From: Limnoperna fortunei
Lineage: Eukaryota > Mollusca > Bivalvia > Mytilida > Modiolidae
Assembly (NCBI GenBank): GCA_944474755.1
Contig: OX104113.1
Span: forward strand, 59,664,074 to 59,728,073
Reading direction: 5' to 3'
Length of the DNA: 64,000 nucleotides
In this document: positions 4,171 to 23,300 of the stretch, in pieces
How the letters are laid out: every line of letters begins with the position of its first letter
Position numbering within the stretch: the first letter of the stretch is position 1
Program-made: the position numbers and the translations under genes
The notes under the pieces: generated by a model
What the model was told of the DNA's origin: nothing
The model's database searches: none
Seen by the model: only the letters and a program-made list of their open reading frames with translations

Positions 4171-4740
4171 TGATAAAATTTCATTGACCGGAAGTATTCT
4201 TAACCAATCAAAAGAGTTGAATTGCAAACAAAACAGAAGGAATGTAATTTTAAACCAAAGATAATAAAGACTAGTAATAACTATGTTGGGATTCCCAACA
4301 CAAATGTCTCCCAAACGAACCCTCCTTGCCACTATAATCTTGATCATGTTGAAACCCCCTCCCATATACAAATTTTTATTAAGATCATGCAATGTCCTAT
4401 ATAATGACCCCCGTTTCTATGGAAAATGCAGCCATTTTTTAAATTCCACAGATGGATTGGAAAACTTCAGGTCACCCTAACATGTCCCAAAGTTTATATA
4501 TAATTGTATACCAAAAATCTTGAAAATAAGCTCTTCTAGCCGCATTTCTGTGTAAACATGTGTAAACTTATAACATTACGTCATACACAAATATCCCATT
4601 AACAGCATTAGAATCATACAGAGCACTAAGAAAAAAATTATAGAGGATGCCAAACGATAAGTCAAAGACGAACAAAAACCATGACTAAACAACAGATAAA
4701 AACACACACACAGAGACTAACAACACCGTAACTGTCCTGT
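4171..4740. other. AT-rich spacer before the satellite array
   Basis: There are only short overlapping ORFs in several frames, none recognisable. A fragment at about 4285-4320 (TTGGGATTCCCAACAC, then TGTCTCCCAAACG) resembles the repeat near 22120-22155. Confidence 0.4.
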
Positions 4741-7700
4741 AAAAGCCTATGTAAGGTTTATATTACAAATGTCCGTTAAAGCCTATGTAAGGTTTATATT
4801 ACTAATGTCCGTTAAAAGTCTATGTAAGGTTGATATTACTAATGTCCGTTGAAGCCTATGTAAGGTTTATATTGCTAATGTCTGTTAAAAGCCTATGTAA
4901 GGTTTATATTACTAATGTCCGTTCAAAGCCTTTGTAAGGTTTATATTACAAATGTCCGTTAAAGCATATGTAAGGTCTTTATTGCTAATATCCGTTAAAA
5001 TTCTATGTAAGGTATATACTACTAATGCCGTTAAAAGCCTATGTAAGGTTTATATTACTAATGTCCGTAAAAGCCTATGTAAGGTTTATATTACAAATGT
5101 CCGTAAAAGGCTATGTAAGGTTTATATTACCAATGTCCGTAAAAGCCTATGTAAGGTGTATATTACTAATGCCCGTTAAAAGTCTATGTAAGGTTTATAT
5201 TATAAATGTCTGTTAAAAGTCTATGTAAGGTTTATATTACTAATGCCGTTAAAAGCCTATGTAAGGTTTATATTACTAATGCCCGTTAAAAGCCTGTGTA
5301 AGGTTTATATTACTAATGCTTGTTAAAAGTCTATGTAAGGTTTATATAACTAATGTCCGTTAAAAGTCTATGTAAGGTTTATATAACTAATGTCCGTAAA
5401 AAACCTATGTAAGATTTATATTACTAATGCCCGTTAAAGCCTATGTAAGATTTATATAACTAATGTCCGTTAAAAGTTTATGTAAGGTTTATTTTGCAAT
5501 GTCTGTTAAAAGCCTACGTAAGGTTTATATAACTAATGTCCGTTAAAAGTCTATGTAAGGTTTATATTACTAATGCCCGTTAAAGCCTGTGTAAGGTTTA
5601 TATTACTAATGCTTGTTAAAAGTCTATGTAAGGTTTATATAACTAATGTCCGTTAAAAGTCTATGTAAGGTTTATATAACTAATGTCCGTAAAAGCCTAT
5701 GTAATGTTTATATTACTAATACCCGTTAAAGCCTATGTAAGGTTTATATAACTAATGTCCGTTAAAAGTTTATGTAAGGTTTATTTTGCAATGTCTGTTA
5801 AAAGCCTATGTAAGGTTTATATAACTAATGTCCGTTAAAAGTCTATGTAACGTTTATATAACTAATGTCCGTTAAAAGTTTATGTAAGGTTTATTTTGCT
5901 AATGTCTGCTAAAAGCCTATGTAAGGTTTATATTACTAATGTCCGTTCAAAGCCTATGTAAGGTTTATGTTTCTTATGTCCGTTAGAAGCCTATGTAAGG
6001 TTTATATAACTAATGCCCGTTAAAAGCCTATGTAAGGTTTATATTACTAATGCTCGTTTAAAGTCTATGTAAGGTTAATATTACTAATGTCCGTTAAAAG
6101 TTTATGTAAGGTTTATATTGCTAATGTCTGCTAAAAGCCTATGTAAGGTTTATATTACTAATGTCCGTTCAAAGCCTATGTAAGGTTTATGTTACTTATG
6201 TCCGTTAGAAGCCTATGTAAGGTTTATATAACTAATGTCCGTTAAAGCCTATGTATGGTTTATATTACTAATGTTCGTTAAAGCCTATGTAAGGTTTATG
6301 TTACTAATGTCCGTTAAAAGTTTATGTAAGGTTTATATTGCTAATGTCTGCTAAAAGCCTATGTAAGGTTTATATTACTAATGTCCGTTAAAAGTCTGTA
6401 AGGTTTATATTACTAATGTCCGTTAAAAGTTTATGTATGGTTTATATAACTAATGTCCGTTAAAAGCCTATGTAAGGTTTATATAACTAATGTCCGTTAA
6501 AGCCTATGTAAGGTTTATATTACTAATGTTCGTTAAAGCCTATGTAAGGTTTATATTACTAATGTCCGTTAAAAGTTTATGTATGGTTTATATAACTAAT
6601 GTCCGTTAAAAGCCTATGTAAGGTTTATATTACTAATGTTCGTTAAAGCCTATGTAAGGTTTATATTACTAATGTCCGTTAAAAGTCTGTAAGGTTTATA
6701 TTACTAATGTCCGTTAAAAGTTTATGTATGGTTTATATAACTAATGTCCGTTAAAAGCCTATGTAAGGTTTATATAACTAATGTCCGTTAAAGCCTATGT
6801 ATGGTTTATATTACTAATGTCCGTTAAAAGTCTGTAAGGTTTATATTACTAATGTTCGTTAAAAGTTTATGTAAGGTTTATATTGCTAATGTCTGCTAAA
6901 AGCCTATGTAAGGTTTATATTACTAATGTCCGTTCAAAGCCTATGTAAGGTTTATGTTACTTATGTCCGTTAGAAGCCTATGTAAGGTTTATATAACTAA
7001 TGTTCGTTAAAGCCTATGTATGGTTTATATTACTAATGCCCGTTAAAAGCCTATGTAAGGTTTATATTACTAATGTCCGTTAAAGCCTATGTATGGTTTA
7101 TATTACTAATGTTCGTTAAAGCCTATGTAAGGTTTATGTTACTAATGTCCGTTAAAAGTTTATGTAAGGTTTATATTGCTAATGTCTGCTAAAAGCCTAT
7201 GTAAGGTTTATATTACTAATGTCCGTTCAAAGCCTATGTAAGGTTTATATTACTAATGTCCGTTAAAAGTTTATGTAAGGTTTATATTGCTAATGTCTGC
7301 TAAAAGCCTATGTAAGGTTTATATTACTAATGTCCGTTCAAAGCCTATGTAAGGTTTATATTACTTATGTCCGTTAAAAGTCTATGCAAGCTTTATAGTA
7401 CAAATGTCCTTTAAAAGTTTATGTAAGGTTTATATCCTTTAAAATTATATGTAAGGTTTATATTACTAATGTACTTTAAAAGCTTATGTAACGTTTATAT
7501 TACTAATACCCGTTAAAAGTCTATGCAAGGTTTATAGTACAAATGTCCGTTAAAAGTCTATTCAAAGTTTATATTACAAATGTCCGTAAAAAGTCTGTGC
7601 AAGGTTTATATTACAAATGTCCGTTAAAAGTCTGTGCAAGGTTTATTGTACAAATGTCCGTTAAAAGTCTATTCAAAGTTTATATTACAAATGCCCGTTA

Positions 7701-8876
7701 AAAGCCTATGCAAGGTTTATATTACAAATGTCCGTTAAAAGTCTGTGCAAGGATTATATTACTAATGTCCGTTAAAGCCTATGTATGGTTTTTATTAATA
7801 ATGTCCTTTAAAAGTCTATGTAAGGTTTATATTACTAATGTACTTTAAAAGCTTATGTAACGTTTATATTACTAATACCCGTTAAAAGTCTATGCAAGGT
7901 TTATAGTACAAATGTCCGTTAAAAGTCTATTCAAAGTTTATATTACAAATGTCCGTAAAAAGTCTGTGCAAGGTTTATATTACAAATGTCCGTTAAAAGT
8001 CTGTGCAAGGTTTATTGTACAAATGTCCGTTAAAAGTCTATTCAAAGTTTATATTACAAATGCCCGTTAAAAGCCTATGCAAGGTTTATATTACAAATGT
8101 CCGTTAAAAGTCTGTGCAAGGATTATATTACTAATGTCCGTTAAAGCCTATGTATGGTTTTTATTAATAATGTCCTTTAAAAGTCTATGTAAGGTTTATG
8201 TTACTAATGTCTGTTCAAAGCCTATGTAAGGTTTATATTACTAATGTTCGTTAAAGCCTTTGTAAGGTTTATGATACTTATGTCCGTTAAAGCCTTTGTA
8301 AGGTTTATATTACTAATGTACTTTAAAAGCTTATGTAACGTTTATATTACTAATACCCGTTAAAAGTCTATGCAAGGTTTATATTACAATTTCCGTTAAA
8401 AGTCTATTCAAAGTTTATATTACAAATGTCGGTAAAAAGTCTGTGCAAGGTTTATATTACAAATGTCCGTTAAAAGTCTGTGCAAGGTTTATTGTACAAA
8501 TGTCCGTTAAAAGTCTATTCAAAGTTTATATTACAAATGCCCGTTAAAAGCCTATGCAAGGTTTATATTACAAATGTCCGTTAAAAGTCTGTGCAAGGAT
8601 TATATTACTAATGTCCGTTAAAGCCTATGTATGGTTTTTATTAATAATGTCCTTTAAAAGTCTATGTAAGGTTTATGTTACTAATGTCTGTTCAAAGCCT
8701 ATGTAAGGTTTATATTACTAATGTTCGTTAAAGCCTTTGTAAGGTTTATGATACTTATGTCCGTTAAAGCCTTTGTAAGGTTTATATTACAAATGTCCTT
8801 TAAAAGTCTATGTAAGGTTTATGTTACTAATGTCCGTTTAAAGCCTATGTAAGGTTTTTATTACTAATGTCTGTTA
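4741..8876 (+). repeat. Satellite-like tandem array, ~37-bp unit, ~110 copies
   Basis: A 4.1-kb uninterrupted array of a 35-37 bp unit containing TATGTAAGGTTTATATTACT followed by AATGTCCGTTAAAAGCC. Variants (GTC/GCC, CAAAT/CTAAT, AAAG/CAAAG) are distributed in blocks, giving higher-order repeats. A distinctive GTACTTTAAAAGC variant recurs at 7471, 7840 and 8318, spacings of 369 and 478 bp or about 10 and 13 units. The last third is dominated by a TGCAAGG variant. ORFs in the array are by-products of the unit length being near a multiple of three. Confidence 0.95.
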
Positions 8877-9150: not shown

Positions 9151-9393
9151 TGTTACACTCAAATTTTCTGTCTAGGGCTATTAATGAATAAAGTCCATAT
9201 ATCTGACAGATTTTAATATTTCCGTGGATCAGTGTAACATTTAACAGAAAACAAAATAAAACATGTGAACGCAACTGCAAATAAGCAAGGACTGAAAAGT
9301 GTGGAAAGTCATCATTATTTTCTATCAAGTTACAAAGAGATAAAATATTTTTGCATTTCTATAATCTGTGATCTCTTAGGGTCAAACACCACA
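9151..9393 (-). repeat. 3' LTR of the retrotransposon
   Basis: On the minus strand it begins TGTGGTG and ends GTGTAACA, giving the usual TG...CA ends. It is nearly identical to 14064-14312. The sequence immediately inside it is not strongly purine-rich, so the polypurine tract is weak or decayed. Confidence 0.85.
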
Positions 9394-9957
9394 GGAGATT
9401 CTAAAGTAGTAAACTGTCTAATATTGTAAAACAATTACAGAGTTCAGCTGAGGTAATCATCACTATACATTATAGTTCCATTCAGGACAACACACATGTT
9501 TATTAATTAAAATAAATGGATAAAATGAATGAAAAAGTAATGTCAAAATTTTACTTCTAACACCTTCCCACACAAGTTAAAAATTTAACTTTTCAAAGTT
9601 GAAATTTTAACCAGTTAATATAAAAATGAATTGAAATGAAACGAAATTGAATTGACATAAATTCTGTCTTTCCCTTATAACAATTATATCTCCACGGACG
9701 TATAACACTATGTTTCCATATTCCTTCACATGAAATATTACATTAAAATTAATATTCATTTTCAAATATTGACTTTTCACAAACTTACACTTTTTGAATT
9801 TTCACAAAATTATCCTTTAATTAAAAATATCTAAACACGAAATACATAGCAATTATCATAACACAAATCAACCGAATATTCACTTGTATATAGTCACAAC
9901 AATATTTGCCGTAATGAATTTCACACATGTTTTTGGTCATTATTATGGACCATTTCA
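9394..9957 (-). other. AT-rich non-coding 3' region of the LTR element
   Basis: It lies between the RNase H remnant and the 3' LTR. No reading frame or recognisable domain is seen. Confidence 0.5.
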
Positions 9958-10430
9958 CTATTTGATTTCACAAAATTCATAAACTACAAATTCTGAATAA
10001 ATTCCAATAACACAATAGTTTCCGAACGTCATTAAGAAAACATGTGCATAAATCCCAATGTTTATCCTCGATAGGTTGTCCGCATTTGCATTTTGTTTTT
10101 CTTTTCGGTATTTTATTTCGAAATCATACGGCTGCAATGCTAACGACCATCTTAAGAGTCTCTGGTTTTTGTCTTTCATTTTGTTCAGCCAAACTAACGG
10201 ATTGTGATCTGTTTCTATGGTAAAATGTCTTCCAACAATAGTAGGATAACGATCCTATAGCCCAAACAATGGCCAACAATCCTTTCTCGATAGTGGAATA
10301 CTCTCGGCAAAAGTTTCTTACTTATGTATGCAACAGGGTGTTCAATCACGGACTTAGTGACGGGATCATCTCCAGTCATGTAATCTTTCAGTACTTGAGT
10401 TGGTCCTCGCACAAGGCCAACCATATAAAA
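9958..10430 (-). pseudogene. RNase H fragment of the retroelement, misplaced after integrase
   Basis: Read on the minus strand across frame changes, it shows the C-terminal two thirds of a Ty3/gypsy RNase H. Visible are a VAYISKKLLPR block, the EYSTIEK helix, the TDHNPLVWL motif and the closing YRKEKQNANADNLSR. The N-terminal strand carrying the first catalytic Asp is absent, and the usual EKE reads EKG. At least two frameshifts break it: the 10215-10529 and 9958-10179 frames each hold part. It is joined directly to the integrase C-terminal region near TGDDPVTKS. In a normal element this domain lies upstream of integrase and right after RT. No RT motif (YxDD) is present in the interior. Confidence 0.8.
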
Positions 10431-11430
10431 GGTCAAATGGAGCAAAACCTGTCTCCTCATGAGGTACCTCTCTGTACGCAAAAAGGACATATGGAAGTAA
10501 TGTATCCCATTCCAATGTTTGCTCAACACATAATTTCTTCAGCATGGATTTTAATGTCCCATTGAATCTCTCGGTTTTGCCATTAGCTTCTGGGTGGTAT
10601 GGTGAAGTATTTATTCCTTTCACTTTCAGAAGGTCATACAGTTGTTTCAACAGTTCACTTTTAAAATTTGACCCTTGATCAGTTAATATTGTTCTTGGAA
10701 CTCCAACTCTACTGAACAAATCTATTAAACAATTATCAATGTTCTCTGCTTCACAACTTTTTAGGGGAAAGGCTTCTGGATATCTAGTTGCATCATCAAC
10801 TTTAGTGAGAATATATTTGTTTCCCTTCTTTGTTCGGTTTAATGGGCCAACAATATCCATAGATATTTTACTAAACGGTTCACTTATAACTGGAGTTGTT
10901 ATCATAGGTGCTTTAACCTTTACTCGTCTCGCAACTCTCTGACAAGTATCACATGTTGAACAATGCTCACTGACATTCCTGAACATGCCAGGCCAATAAA
11001 ATGCTCTCAGGATTCTCACCTTAGTCTTCTCTACACCGAGATGACTAGCTAAGGGTTGAGTGTGTGCTTACTGTATTACAGATTCACGTAGGCATGCAGG
11101 TAAAACAACTTGATGCCATACCTTAGTTTTGTCAGGGGATGTCCACTTCCTTCTCAGGATTTTATTTTCCCAGTAAAAAGCTCTTGGAAACTTCTCAATA
11201 CTATCTGGTTGAGACAATGCCTTTTCTCTGCAGTTCTGCAATGAGGGATCCTCCCTCTGCATCCTTGACAACACTTCAGCATTAACTATGCTAATATTAT
11301 CTAAACCGATAATATCCTCGTTTATCTCGTTAAGATTATTCGGATCTTCTGGAGTATCATGGACTATGTTACCCTCTGGCTTATTTTTCCCATTAAACCA
11401 ATCCTGAGGTATAACATCACTGTCCAGCAT
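10366..11430 (-). pseudogene. Integrase of the retroelement, with nonsense and frameshift lesions
   Basis: It inserts the cDNA copy into DNA. The N-terminal spacer (11430-11068) ends at an in-frame TAA (11070-11068). The same frame then resumes with the zinc-binding region: an AHTQPLASHLG histidine block, then CSTCDTCQ. The core has all three catalytic acids: SMDIVGPL, LTDQGSNF, and the Glu of NGKTERF exactly 35 residues after the second Asp. The C-terminal region moves to another frame near LLYG (VRGPTQVLKDY follows in the second frame), then runs into RNase H sequence. The catalytic core is intact, but the N-terminal stop and C-terminal shift make it a pseudogene. Confidence 0.9.
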
Positions 11431-11879
11431 CTTAGCCTGTGACTTCTCATCACATCTCTTATCTTTAAGTGCTTGAGCCTTGTAACTACATTAATTTGCT
11501 GCCGATTCATCATTTCCATACCCAATAGTGCATCTGCCATAAGGTCAGGAACTACACTAACCTGAACATGGCCACTATAATATGGTGTCTCCAGATGAAC
11601 AATGGCTAGCTTAGCCTCAAACGGCTGACCTATAGCTGTATACAGAGTTGTTCTCTGTCCGTCCAAGACACAACTTGAACCTACTAAATTTTCACGCAAT
11701 AAAGTAATCGAAGCACCCGTATCCTTTACAAACGACACTTCTCGCTGATTGACTTTTCCTGGAATATGAATGAATCCATAATTCCTATTTGAGAGACTGG
11801 AAGCTAGATTAATACTACCTGGACACTTGTTAGCAAAATGTTCCAGCTTACTACGCTTGTAACATTTGATATTTACCAT
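11364..11879 (-). pseudogene. Zinc knuckle plus aspartic protease of the retroelement
   Basis: The N-terminus carries a damaged CCHC zinc knuckle: CYKRSKLEHFANKC, with Arg where the second Cys belongs. A retropepsin-like protease follows, with active-site VKDTGAS (consensus VDTGAS) and the C-terminal ALLGMEMM block. A one-base deletion near 11475 throws the frame, and the true continuation is in the frame of 11430-11068. RT and RNase H would normally follow here, but instead the pre-integrase spacer follows directly. Confidence 0.85.
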
Positions 11880-11986
11880 CTTGGATTCTTTTGCAAATTC
11901 ACTTTTCCTATTCCGGAATCATTAAGTGGTTTTCAAGGTGTTTCCTGATAACTCGATTTCGGAGGTGGGATGTAATCTTCAGCTGC

Positions 11987-12784
11987 TTACACGACAGACG
12001 AACTTCCTTTATTTCGACAAATCCACTGGGCTTGAGATGGAGAAAGCGCCTTTAGAAAGTATTCCTCTTTGAAGAACTTAATTGGATCTTTCCCTTTTAT
12101 ACATCTTTCTAGACACTGCTCAATTCGTGACATTAATCCGCGATATGTTTCATTGTTCTCTTTTCTCACGTTACACAATTCCAAAAAGTATTCGTGAGGG
12201 CGTTTACTGTAACGGTCAATCAATGCTCTTTTCAACTGGTATTATGAAGCTGAAGCTTGGGATGAAACTTGTCTCGCTTCTCGGGTTAACAAAGTTCTCA
12301 GTTGTAAAATTTTAATTTCATTTGTCCCCTTTGCCTGGTCTCCAACAGCATCAAATTCAGACAAAAATGTTAAAATATCATCGCTCTTGGATTAAATGAT
12401 TGAAGTTTAACTTTGAATGAAAGAGAATTACTTTGTTCATTAGTTGGTTGATCCTAATTGTCTTGACAATTCATGTCGTTCCCGTACTACGGCTAACTTT
12501 TCCATTTCTACTCTAAGCTTTTCTCGTTCGAGTGCAATCTTTTCTCTCTCTAATTCCATTTCCAATTTTAGTGTGTCGACATTCTTTTTGCGAATTGTCT
12601 TTTTGGGTGGATTTTTCGGCTTTACAAAAGTTTCTTCAACTTCAGAGTCTTCTTCATATTGTGGATCCTCATCCTCAGTAAAGTTAATAAGTTTTTCTGC
12701 TGCCCCTCTCTTCCCTTTACGTTTAACAACGGAGTCCTCTGCTTGCATTTCTAACATCACTACAGTTTTATCCACGGACATCAT
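11987..12784 (-). pseudogene. gag-like region of the retroelement
   Basis: It starts at ATG 12784. The first frame (to 12440) is highly charged and ends in a predicted coiled coil (LEMELEREKIALEREKLRVE). After a frame change and an internal stop near 12235, the second frame (12235-11987) carries a capsid-like helical segment with RYSKRPHEYF and YRGLMSRIEQCLE. This is the layout of retrotransposon gag/SCAN-like capsid proteins. The leader is about 100 bp once the inserted foldback element is discounted. Confidence 0.7.
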
Positions 12785-12812
12785 TTATACTATATTTCTA
12801 ATTGCATACATA

Positions 12813-13983
12813 CGAAAGCCCAGAAGGCTCATTCGATATTCGAAATTCGAGATTCGAGATTCGAAACTCGAAATTCGAGATTCGAAATTCGAAATTCGAG
12901 ATTTGAAACTCGAGATTCGAAATTCGACATTCGAGATTCGAAATTCGACATTCGAGATTCGAAATTCGAAATTCGAGATTCGAAATTCGAAATTCAATAT
13001 AGTTATAACCAATCAGATTGTCTACCAATCAGAATCGTTCTTATATAAACTTAGCCACGTGCTATTATGTTTATTTGGGGTTGACATATTTGTTAAACAA
13101 TGACTGTGTTCAACATGGTTTTGTTAAAAAAAAAATCAAATTTATAAGCTTTATTTGTTATTTTATCAAATTAATTCAGTTCACAATAACATCTTGATTT
13201 CACAAATCAAGAAACAAGAATGTACCTGTAAAACGGAATTCAACAAAACTTGGTGTGTAGGAAGTACACCATATATAGTTGTGCATGTTACCAGTGCATT
13301 TTGGTCCTTAAATTTTGTGGGGGCTATCAGGGATCCATAGGGGCCCTCGCTTTTCACGGAAAAATTTGGTTGGATATATAGGAAATCATTGAAGCATGAC
13401 CAAAGTGGGCCCCCCTTGGCCAGTCAGTGCCCCCCTTTTCGAAATTTCTGGATCCGCCATTGTCTTATTTTGGCCCTTTGAACTTAGAAATGTGCTGAAA
13501 ATACCCATTAATTATCTTGTCAGCACAAATCCTCTGATACTACTCAGTACTATACAAAATTTTATGAAACTTGGTATGTAACTAGTACACCATATATGTA
13601 GTTGTGCATATTATCAGGAATTGTTGATTCCTAAATTTATATGGTAGTTATGGCTCTCTGAACTTAGAAATTTTCAGTAATCCTCAATAGTCATGGTTTT
13701 CGCCTTAACTCCCCTAAAACTACTCAACCAAATTTTATGTAGTTTCAATATAAGCAAGGAATTCTGATTGGTAGAGAATATGTCACACGCAATCTGATTG
13801 GCTAAAACTATATTGAATTTCGAATCTCGAATTTCAAATTTCGAATCTCGAATTTCGAATCTCGAATATATAAGAACTACTCTGATTGGTAGACGATTAT
13901 GTCACACGCAATCTGATTGGTTATAACTATATTGAATTTCGAATTTCGATTCTCGAATTTCGAATGAGCCTTCTGGGCTTTCG
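12813..13983. mobile_element. 1.17-kb foldback element with TTCGAAATTCGAG arms
   Basis: Terminal inverted repeats begin CGAAAGCCCAGAAGGCTCAT and end with the reverse complement. They are flanked by a perfect 6-bp target duplication TACATA at 12807-12812 and 13984-13989. Subterminal arms consist of tandem TTCGAAATTCGAGA units (12836-12995 left; 13812-13865 and 13932-13963 right). The right arm contains a ~130-bp duplication with TGATTGGTAGA and TCACACGCAATC. The interior has two diverged copies of a ~310-bp segment (about 13240 and 13556) and no credible gene. It lies between the primer site and the gag start of the LTR element, so it inserted after that element. Confidence 0.9.
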
Positions 13984-14041
13984 TACATACAGGAATTCTA
14001 TTTCCGCAATTGTCCCGAAATAATGATGTATAAAGATCAGT

Positions 14042-14059
14042 ATCCCACCGCTGCCACCA
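14042..14059 (-). promoter_or_regulatory. Retrotransposon primer-binding site, tRNA-Leu type
   Basis: The minus strand reads TGGTGGCAGCGGTGGGAT, four bases inside the 5' LTR. It is complementary to the 3' end (...ATCCCACCGCTGCCACCA) that I recall for tRNA-Leu(UAG). An 18-base match marks the start of minus-strand DNA synthesis. Confidence 0.85.
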
Positions 14060-14063
14060 GAAA

Positions 14064-14312
14064 TGTTACACTCAAATTTTCTGTCTAGGGCTATTAATGA
14101 ATAAAGTCCATATATCTGACAGATTTGAATATTTCCGTGGATCAGTGTAACATTTAACAGAAAACAAAATAAACATGTGAACGCAACTGCAAATAATCAA
14201 GGACTGAAAAGTGTGGAAAGTCAACATTATTTTCTATCAAGTTACAAAGAGATAAAATATTTTGGCATTTCGAAGTCTATAAATCTGTAATCTCTTAGGG
14301 TCAAACACCACA
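14064..14312 (-). repeat. 5' LTR of the retrotransposon
   Basis: Near-identical to 9151-9393, with about six substitutions and a few small indels by eye. It abuts the primer site, which fixes the element's orientation as minus. Confidence 0.85.
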
Positions 14313-14902
14313 GGACTTGTGGATTGTCTTTTTTGACAGTTTTCTCGGTGTTCGGTATTTTGTTATTACAAAAAGGGACACTTTAACTGAAAATAACTTT
14401 TCAATGAATTTTCTTTTAAATCGCAATATAGTTAGTTTTTCATACACGTTTTCATAATTCAAAATAAAAAATAAGGGTTTCAGAGCTTACTTTTCGAGGG
14501 GTTGAGCACTGAAATTTTGAATTTTCTAATAGATTATACAGAGAAGAGAAGAAAAAAGCAGTAAAATAAAAAAATTACAAATATCCTGCGATTAATTTTT
14601 CTGAATTTTTTTATATAATGTCAGTGAATTAGTATACATTTATGTAATAAAAAGAACAAATTGTTAAAAATAGTATTTTTTGGTCAAAATTACCTCTCTT
14701 GTTAAAAAATTTCCTTTTCATATTTGTAAATATCGAACTAATTTATGCGAAAACATTTTATTTCAACTGTTATCAATCATAATATTTTAACTTTTATGGA
14801 GATTAAGAGTTAATAATGAAAAAAAGTTGTTATTAAATTTACCATAAATGTGATATCTATTTGAAATTTTCACCAAAAGTGGCAGATGCGTCCTGCATCC
14901 CC
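14313..14902. other. AT-rich flank; fragment of an older repeat at its left edge
   Basis: 14325-14368 (GACAGTTTTCTCGGTGTTCG...) matches the reverse complement of about 24185-24235. The LTR element therefore appears to have landed in or beside an older dispersed repeat. The rest has no recognisable feature. Confidence 0.45.
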
Positions 14903-18705: not shown

Positions 18706-19060
18706 AAAGAATCTTACAGTTCAGCATTTATAAAAGATTATGTTATCGACGGATTATTTTTTTTGGATTATGTCGATTAGATGCGGATGATATTTGTAGT
18801 TATAATCTGTATATTTAGTGATGTCGTTAGCAGATTTCCTTTATTTCTCACACTCTTATGATTTTTTCAAAGTGTGTGGAATAGTGGAATCAACAGGCGA
18901 GTGGAAGGTAAAAAAATGCCTTAGTATTTATTTATGGTCATTATTAAGCGAAGCATTACGCAGTTCAAACACAAAGTTTCCATTAGGATAGCTGGATTAT
19001 CCTTAAACGCAGTTTAATGTTTTTCCAACGCTTTCCGTTATTTCAACCTTCTTCTGAACT

Positions 19061-19555
19061 ATGGTAACTATCCTTGGTCATGAGGTCTTGCTATTTGAAA
19101 AGCCGAGATTGTGTAAACATGGTATTTTGCTTACCTGTGTTTACTTTCTGTTGTTTATCATTAAAGAGTGTTTGTGTTTAGAATTGAGCTGCCCAAACAG
19201 ATGGATGGAAATACCGTTTAATTGTAGTAGTAATTTAAATCAGTGCCTTGTTATTAGACATAATTTCAGTGAAGAAATCTGTAAAAAGAGTACAAATCGT
19301 AACCCAAAACAAAGAACGCTCGAGCTAAGGAGAAATAAGTTTTTGAATTTTTGTAATCACTACAATTTAGACAAAGTGATGTCAGAAAGTGATAAATTAA
19401 CTCATATAGAGGGTAAAAATTGTGTGGAATTTTTAAGGAATATAGAGTGTCAGGATTCACTGGCTGAAATGATGTACAATCAGTTTGTTGATTTGTTGTC
19501 ACGTATGGACTGTCAAAAGCCTTATTCAGTCAGATGGAATTGTACAGACTGTTTG
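19061..19555 (+). CDS. NALF1: NALF1/FAM155-like NALCN channel auxiliary factor, first coding exon
   Basis: In animals, NALF/FAM155 proteins (nlf-1 in nematodes) fold and traffic the NALCN sodium-leak channel and sit on its extracellular face. This exon encodes 165 residues. The ATG has A at -3 and G at +4, and an in-frame TGA lies at 19055-19057, so the start is secure. Residues ~20-40 are one hydrophobic segment, matching the family's N-terminal membrane anchor. A Cys-rich region follows, with family-like blocks: KFLNFCNHYNL (~93-103), a NCVEF block (~120), QDSLAEMMYNQFVDLLSRM (~131-149) and YSVRWNCTDCL (155-165). Possible N-glycosylation sites are NCSS, NFSE and NCTD. The reading runs into a perfect donor, TTG|GTAAGT, at 19556 in phase 0; beyond it only five more codons precede a stop. 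The family call comes from remembered motif similarity. The remaining exons were not found. Confidence 0.75.
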
Positions 19556-20149
19556 GTAAGTCATGTGTTTTGAATGTGTGTGTTTGTGTTTTAACCATAT
19601 TATTTACAGTCTGGTGATGCCTGAACCAGAAATACTACAAGAAAACTGTATTGTTGTGATAATGATATTAGTGTATATCAACTACAGATTAAGTCCCAGT
19701 TTGTAAGACAATTTACACAAACTCGGATAGATGGAGTGTCATAAACGTTTCTTCAGACATATCACATGACACAGCACATTACACGAGTTTAGACCTAACT
19801 CCACCTAAAATTTATTAACAACAGTATTTTGTTAAATGTTAACACTTTTAAATGCAACCTTTGCTGAAATACCCATTTCACTACAAAAACCATAGTTATC
19901 TTGTCTTTTTAATAAACGTGACAGAATAGACTCAAAAGATTGTTTGTATGTTTTGAATATGAAGTGTTGTAGTTCAAAGAAAGTGCAGTGTTGAAACTCA
20001 TTACTTTCTGTGTAGCTCACCTTACTACTAAAAATTTGTATTAATAAAAATCCAAAAAAAAAAAAAACATATCACCAAACGTTCCAGAACTATATTTAAG
20101 GATTCGATTAATGTTTTTTTCAGAGGCTATAATTGTCCGGATAGGTCTT

Positions 20150-20398: not shown

Positions 20399-23300
20399 GT
20401 CTGTTAACATTAAGACATTTTCGCTTTTTAAAGCCTTCGCCTTGATTTTTTTAAGTCAGTTCGGTAGATACCTCACTACAACACACAAATTATCTTTTTA
20501 ACAGGTATGATCTATTTATTTAATTGTTCACCAACATTGACCTAAATTATTAATTACTAGTCGATGTAACGGAGTATACAATTTCAAAATATAACACATC
20601 AACCTGATTCGTCGTTAGCAAGTTAATTTTTGGTGTAATGATCCATAAATAAGTATATTGAGAGAGAGTCGATTACGGATGAATATGCACTCTACCACCT
20701 CATACTTATGAGCTACAGTTGGCCATTCATAACACTAATTCCACGTGCACTTTCTCAATCATAATTAACGTTATTGCTAATTGGGCGTGTAACAAGTGGT
20801 GTTTGTATGTTTCTTTTTGTAAAGGAATCAGATCTAAACGTCTTTAGAATTTCTTCCGAGAACATCCTATCTGGAAAGTTCAATAAATGTTTCATGCATT
20901 ACACTCTTTTCGTCAATAAATTCTTAGAAGGTTTGCAATTTTATGCATACATGCATAATAATAAGATATAGAGAATAAGGCGCTTTAAGGTTTTGAAAAT
21001 TGTTTATGAGAAGGTTACCTGAGTGTTAAATATTCAATTGTAACGGCCATTGAACAATCATGTTTATTTGTTTGGAAATATTTTGTCTACTTTTGACGAA
21101 TCAATGAATCGTCATATATATATATACCTCAAGGCAAACATATGCTACACAGCACAGCGGGATAGATGCATGCTCTTTTGAAGATATATGGGTACTGAAT
21201 AAACTTAATTAGAAGTACATATGTCATGTTTTATGACATGTGTTGCTCAGCAATTACACTGCTATACATGTTTTAGATCGCGCGTTTTGGGTGAACTATT
21301 TTTAAAAGCTACGTTCAACGCTAAAATTCGCAATAGTCTACATTTGCACATTTTAAAATGTTTAATTATCTTCTACTCTATAAATGGTCTTTACGAACAA
21401 TCACTTTAATTTGGTTTCAGAGGGAATTATATTTTTCTGTTCGATTTGTAACAGAAGTGTTTTGATTTTTTTGCTGAGACGCCATGAAATAGACGCAAAT
21501 TGAACTCTCAAGGTTAAAACATTCGTATTCAAGACGTACTAGGTTCAAAATAGGGACGTCCTAAGAACCCGGTAATTTGTTTCCAGCAAAAATTGTGTAA
21601 AAAAAGTAAGCATATTTTCTTGACCCTACCTTTCTATCTAAACCATCTCTTTTCAAACTCATCGAAAGTTTTGAACAAAAATAAAATATCAGCATAACGA
21701 TTTTCGAGATTATATCACATTTAAAGTCCTATACATATAAATCAGACAACCATTTCACATATTTTACAAACAGTTATGATTGCCAAACACATATTGTAAC
21801 AGCATATTTATTTGGTAATATAAACCTGTTTTAACATTTAGTCAGTACTTTGAGGGAGGATTTTTTTAATAAAAGCTGCTTTTATATTGTATTAAAGATT
21901 TGTAGTCGATCCCCGATAGTAGTGATTCTAACAGACAATAAACATGATTATGATCTTATGGATCATAGATGGCTCCCAAACCCCTTGTGGTCCCTGATGG
22001 CTACTCTTCAAGTCATGACCTATTTTTTTGCTGAAGTTTTCATATCGATCCAATTTACAGTCTCCGAGAAACCGGTCGGAAAAATTTTGGCGGAAAGCGG
22101 AAGAAAACAAATAAACAGAGCAAAAACAATATGTCTCCCAAATCTTTGTTTGGGAACCTTAATTCTAAACATGGCGTACGGTATTTTTTGTTTTAAGTGT
22201 GTATGGGATAAGTTGTTCATAAACTGGATCTTACTACAATCAATTTTAATCTATACACTCTTTCAATTTATGAGTTTGGGTATGGTAATACATTTTTCAC
22301 GATCGAAATGGGCTGTATAAGACCGACTTTAAACCTATTGTTATATTAACATAACTTAATATCTCTTTTTCTTAATTGTTCATGCAATCATAACTTAAGA
22401 ATTATTCTTTTTGATAAAATTAAAACTAATCATAATCAACTAGTTTTTAAACTTATTACCTGTATTATGTTTTCAAGTTGTGTTTATGTTAATGTTGCCC
22501 TAACCCTTCAGGGTGTATAAATTTTGCAATGAAGTTATTATTATTTAAAACGTTTCAAAGCACAAAATAATACATTAAAAAATTTGAACAAGTATATGTG
22601 ACAAAAAATTCTTTTATAATATGTGTTTGGGTACAGTTTGGGTAATATACTTTCACAATCTTAAGGGGTTTCATAAGACCGACTTTAACATTTAACTTCA
22701 CTCTTCATAAATAAAGTTAATAAAACGTTAAAACATATTGATACTTCAAATGTGTGTTTGGGTAAATTTGGGTTAAAAGTCATGCGGCAATAGGGCGTGG
22801 GATCTTTTTATCTGGTACAACCCAGACCCGTTATTGTGTTTGACTGTTCCAAACCAAGCTATTTATATCCTTATATAGTGTACATGTAGTTTTCAGCATG
22901 TTCCTTCATGGTAGTTTTTTTCTTGTCGGGGATTGGACGGATCATAGTAACGTGATTTATTGACTATTTGTTTTATCTCCTCTTTATATACTTATAAAAT
23001 ATGAAGTTACTATTAAAAGTCAGTGGAATTGGACAGAAGAAATGGATGTTTTGTTTGTCATATGAAGCATGAGAACAAATAAAAATGTCTCTAAAAATAG
23101 AGTGTATGTAATATAAAAGAAAAACAACACATTTTGTGCTGACATTTAATTTTATGTAAATTAATTATTGATGTGTTCAACTCTTTTGAAAGAGGTATTT
23201 TCGTATGTTTAGGATGATTAATTTGAGAAAGAAACAAAATCAAACTGGAAGAAATCACATTTCACTTCTTATTGATTTTATTTAAGATAAATAACTAATC

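Follow-up and report, generated by a model that had tools for sequence, protein, structure and literature searches.

An element with long terminal repeats (LTRs) in Limnoperna fortunei carries its domains in the order gag, protease (PR), integrase (IN) and RNase H (RH), with no reverse transcriptase (RT), and raises the question of whether this layout represents a new type of retrotransposon or the remains of a known one. This element occupies positions 9151-14315, on the minus strand, of the window, by which we mean the whole 64,000-nt stretch of DNA that was analyzed. A preliminary description measured its order against the canonical PR-RT-RH-IN arrangement of Ty3/gypsy elements and proposed either a copy scrambled by template switching during reverse transcription or a non-autonomous lineage spreading with the RT of another element. 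We are highly confident of a simpler reading: the element is a defective Ty3/gypsy copy from a Gmr1-like gag-PR-IN-RT-RH family, which lost its RT by one deletion of ~1.47 kb.

The unusual order itself is borne out by Pfam matches on the minus strand, and no RT was found in the 64-kb window by tblastn with the RT domain of a sibling copy (best E 1.6). The gag region (11766-12784) has broken frames and is assigned by position, open reading frames and collinearity with siblings; two pieces of it gave no Pfam match above the cut-off, and the corresponding sibling stretch gave none. It is followed by an aspartic protease (11502-11765; PF13975, E 4.7e-9), a PR-IN spacer (11068-11501) and the integrase (10345-11067), which is delimited by Pfam, tblastn and open reading frames, retains the H2C2 zinc finger (10930-11067; PF17921, E 4.1e-15) and the core (10591-10881; PF00665, E 8.4e-13), and has its C-terminal domain deleted. 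The RH fragment (10063-10343) is spread over three frames and lacks its first part, which went with the deletion: one piece matches PF17917 at E 8.2e-10, another falls below the Pfam cut-off at 2.2e-4, and tblastn with sibling RH aligns residues 2-98 in frames -3, -1 and -2. The two LTRs, earlier described as intact-looking, are not both intact: the left one, the 3' LTR in element orientation (9151-9562, 412 bp), has TG...CA ends, and the 5' LTR on the right (14064-14315) stops after 252 bp, with ~160 bp of its outer part and the target duplication missing. A putative polypurine tract, purine-rich by direct reading, adjoins the 3' LTR at 9563-9576. The primer-binding site (14042-14059) lies 4 nt inside the 5' LTR, and its sequence also adjoins the LTR in three further copies (L004, L007 and L016) as far as compared. 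We take it to resemble the complement of a tRNA-Leu 3' end; no tRNA genes or Rfam families were found in the 64-kb window.

The parentage of the element is apparent from its relatives in the host assembly (1,335,373,924 bases, 285 contigs), where a search with the LTR scored 40 of 76 candidates and matched at 40 places. Seven siblings (L009, L010, L011, L012, L013, L016 and L044) align to the window in two blocks, 9385-10344 and 10338-12810, and carry between them an extra 1,465-1,476 bases. In the three siblings that were scanned (L009, L010 and L013), the extra stretch consists of the integrase C-terminal SH3 domain and RVT_1, and in L009 and L010 it runs on into RNase H. L009 additionally has PR and the H2C2 zinc finger upstream of the integrase core, and its RT bears the motif AYFDD. 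The native order of the parent family is PR-IN-RT-RH, in place of the canonical one that had been assumed. The block 10338-12810, from gag through integrase, is collinear in all seven siblings, and the PR/IN junction previously placed at about 11430 does not exist: the spacer is contiguous in siblings and is not a rearrangement junction. RT between PR and IN, as expected in siblings of a scrambled canonical element, was not seen: the gag-to-IN stretch is contiguous in the seven siblings, and RT comes after IN in the three scanned. L045 has no match to the RH side of the window. A short copy of the same or a related family, L014 (G000:C2:100278000-100282200), contains pieces of RT and RNase H and shows no match to window 10338-12810; the part it retains is roughly complementary to what the window copy has lost.

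The two aligned blocks meet at 10338-10344, which is the actual position of the IN/RH junction formerly put near 10420; the break close to that place, at 10411, is a frameshift within the integrase. The hexamer TGTTCA is found in siblings both at the integrase breakpoint (shown for six) and at the RNase H breakpoint (shown for L009, L010 and L011), and the window copy keeps one copy of it, at the junction. The ~1.47 kb would have been lost between these short direct repeats, of which the first lies in the C-terminal region of IN and the second within RNase H; such a deletion would take out RT along with the IN C-terminal domain and the beginning of RNase H, and fuse the integrase to the remaining RNase H. 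Since IN precedes RT natively, nothing has been scrambled and a single deletion accounts for the layout; and since that one deletion removed RT, the unusual layout amounts to ordinary decay rather than a new element type. Template switching survives from the earlier proposal as a possible cause of the deletion, given the 6-7 nt breakpoint repeat: it might have occurred during reverse transcription, followed by copying with sibling proteins. A microhomology-mediated deletion within the genome fits equally well.

The placement of the family relies on the RT-RH region of L009. Among solved structures, the nearest to this region are those of Ty3 (7q5b, E 3.5e-89, and 4ol8, E 2.5e-88, the best two of 60 listed from 203 matches), which outscore retroviral RTs among the same 60. 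Judged by this similarity, measured on a sibling because the window copy itself has no RT, the family belongs to Ty3/gypsy (Metaviridae). A protein search with the sibling RT-RH gave 3,142 matches among 7,980 scored. Matches to both IN and RT occur in 75 of the 120 relatives listed, and IN precedes RT in every one of these 75, including all 50 in which the IN match exceeds 150 aa. Among ten proteins viewed singly, IN comes first in P0002 and in those from Pinctada, Sinanodonta, Salmo trutta, Acipenser and Amphimedon; no IN match was seen in the proteins from Saccostrea, Lepidochelys, Trichonephila and Labeo, though RT and RH matched. The nearest named relatives among the matches listed are from Pinctada (64%) and Saccostrea (66%).

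Goodwin and Poulter reportedly described the cod element Gmr1, and the Gmr1 clade of Ty3/gypsy, in 2002. Integrase upstream of RT is given for Gmr1-clade Gypsy elements in two papers (PMC8220671 and PMC6238403), and the clade is listed in a third among those present in several phyla (PMC8556966). The siblings and all 75 listed relatives with both domains share this trait, so that an affiliation with the Gmr1 clade appears probable from domain order. The window copy differs from the clade in having no RT, no IN C-terminal domain and only part of RNase H. Internally deleted, non-autonomous copies of LTR retrotransposons are a known general kind. The window copy resembles them in that its deletion lies between short repeats and that its 3' LTR, primer site and purine tract are kept; unlike them, its form shows no amplification among 27 scored candidates, and its 5' LTR is truncated. 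The IN-before-RT order is thus already known, and the window copy is an ordinary decayed, internally deleted Gmr1-order Ty3/gypsy copy.

Three other readings have to be weighed against a single deletion. That a canonical PR-RT-RH-IN element was scrambled by template switching is suggested by the departure of the window order from the textbook one, but IN precedes RT in siblings and database relatives, and siblings have PR and IN in one uninterrupted stretch; we give this reading practically no credence, and the siblings rule it out. The preliminary description had proposed counting genomic copies that share the IN/RH junction, and the count favors a one-off event. A query of 301 bases across the junction, run through a genome search that starts with a heuristic first look, yielded 27 candidates, all of them scored, and the window copy is the only one that spans the junction. 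Eight strong matches cover the IN side only and start at query position 139-140, seven on the RH side all end at position 145, and the remainder comprises one match at 1-118 and ten weaker partial matches. With no second copy carrying the junction among these 27, the one-off half of the earlier alternative is supported, and the half that posited an amplified non-autonomous lineage is not. The single-copy junction is read from assembled sequence, and a collapsed or otherwise faulty assembly of this locus could in principle produce it. The clean microhomology at the deletion, the window-private substitutions on both flanks (15 in RH, 10 in IN) and the presence of an independent nested insertion at the same locus nevertheless make such an error extremely improbable.

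A gag-PR-IN-RH lineage that spreads with the RT of another element has precedent, as RT-less LTR lineages mobilized in trans exist, and it draws some support from the LTRs. Both window LTRs are without a piece of ~61-64 bp that most family LTRs examined have kept: in a classification drawing on 37 of the 40 scored places of the LTR query (the last three left out; 40 of 76 candidates scored), the piece is at least partly kept in 18 of 21 loci compared, absent in L003 and L052, and beyond the end of L057, which stops before it. L003, a solo LTR whose 5-bp target duplication reads ACCTC, has the same ends as the window 3' LTR. Its deletion junction is identical to that of both window LTRs, while the deletion in L052 is similar with different ends; the exact sharing leaves room for two or more insertions from a short-LTR source. 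The divergence of L003 from the window LTRs (3.4-3.5%) is, however, no smaller than its divergence from L009 (2.9%), so the shared deletion may be recurrent. A small short-LTR subfamily is possible, but absence of RT from such a subfamily finds no support in the data seen. That the window copy and the source of L003 form a small RT-less subfamily, which retained gag, PR and some of IN and was mobilized in trans by Gmr1-order siblings with a borrowed RT, strikes us as very unlikely. The same low probability applies to the non-autonomous lineage in general, against which stand the single spanning copy among the 27 scored candidates, the frameshift in the window integrase together with the loss of a C-terminal domain present in siblings, and the character of the integrase substitutions: the changes private to the window copy are seven nonsynonymous and three synonymous—small numbers, in which the integrase gives no apparent sign of constraint.

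The copy left by the deletion is very likely inactive today. Besides the frameshift, an in-frame stop lies at 11068-11070, just before the zinc-finger open reading frame, at a place where the frame of L009 is open. The window copy has 15 private changes over 284 bases of RH and 10 over 716 bases of IN, a higher density in RH that could be taken as a mark of mosaic origin; L012 compared with L009 displays the same tendency (3.8% versus 1.7%), and the denser RH changes are for this reason read as a property of the family. Between the two window LTRs, 245 aligned sites show 5 differences (K2P 0.021), and another alignment of a nearly equal stretch gives 3.0%. LTR pairs of the siblings L009-L013 (n=5) have K2P values from 0 to 0.0195; the value of 0.11 for L014 is unreliable, its alignment being broken by 28 gap runs.

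The main value of these results is corrective: an apparent gag-PR-IN-RH layout arises by RT deletion from a Gmr1-order parent and is for that reason not to be taken for domain shuffling. The siblings also show that Ty3/gypsy elements with IN before RT are present in the host genome. A survey of mollusc LTR elements mentions Gmr1 a single time in its main text, as background (PMC6238403), which suggests that the IN-before-RT order may be under-recorded in molluscs.

The retrotransposon was itself the target of a later insertion. Between its primer site and gag lies a nested inverted-repeat element of 1,175 bp (12811-13985; 12805-13991 with its target duplications), with inverted ends TACGAAAGCCCAGAAGGCTCATTCGA, internal 7-bp repeats of the ATTCGAA type, and the 6-bp target duplication CATACA at 12805-12810 and 13986-13991. 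It is missing from all eight siblings that cover the site, and is an insertion later than the retrotransposon. The family of the nested element is high-copy in the host genome, with 1,424 first-look candidates, 40 of them scored. Elsewhere in the window, two long open stretches on the plus strand, 19058-19573 and 21835-22320, are possible host-gene exons; neither has a Pfam match, and the former, the sole stretch tried against solved structures in the PDB, has none there. An initial guess that they belong to a channel-subunit gene drew no support from these searches. On the other side of the retrotransposon, a tandem array of a 37-bp unit (4733-8876, ~113 copies, 86% matches) ends ~275 bp from it.
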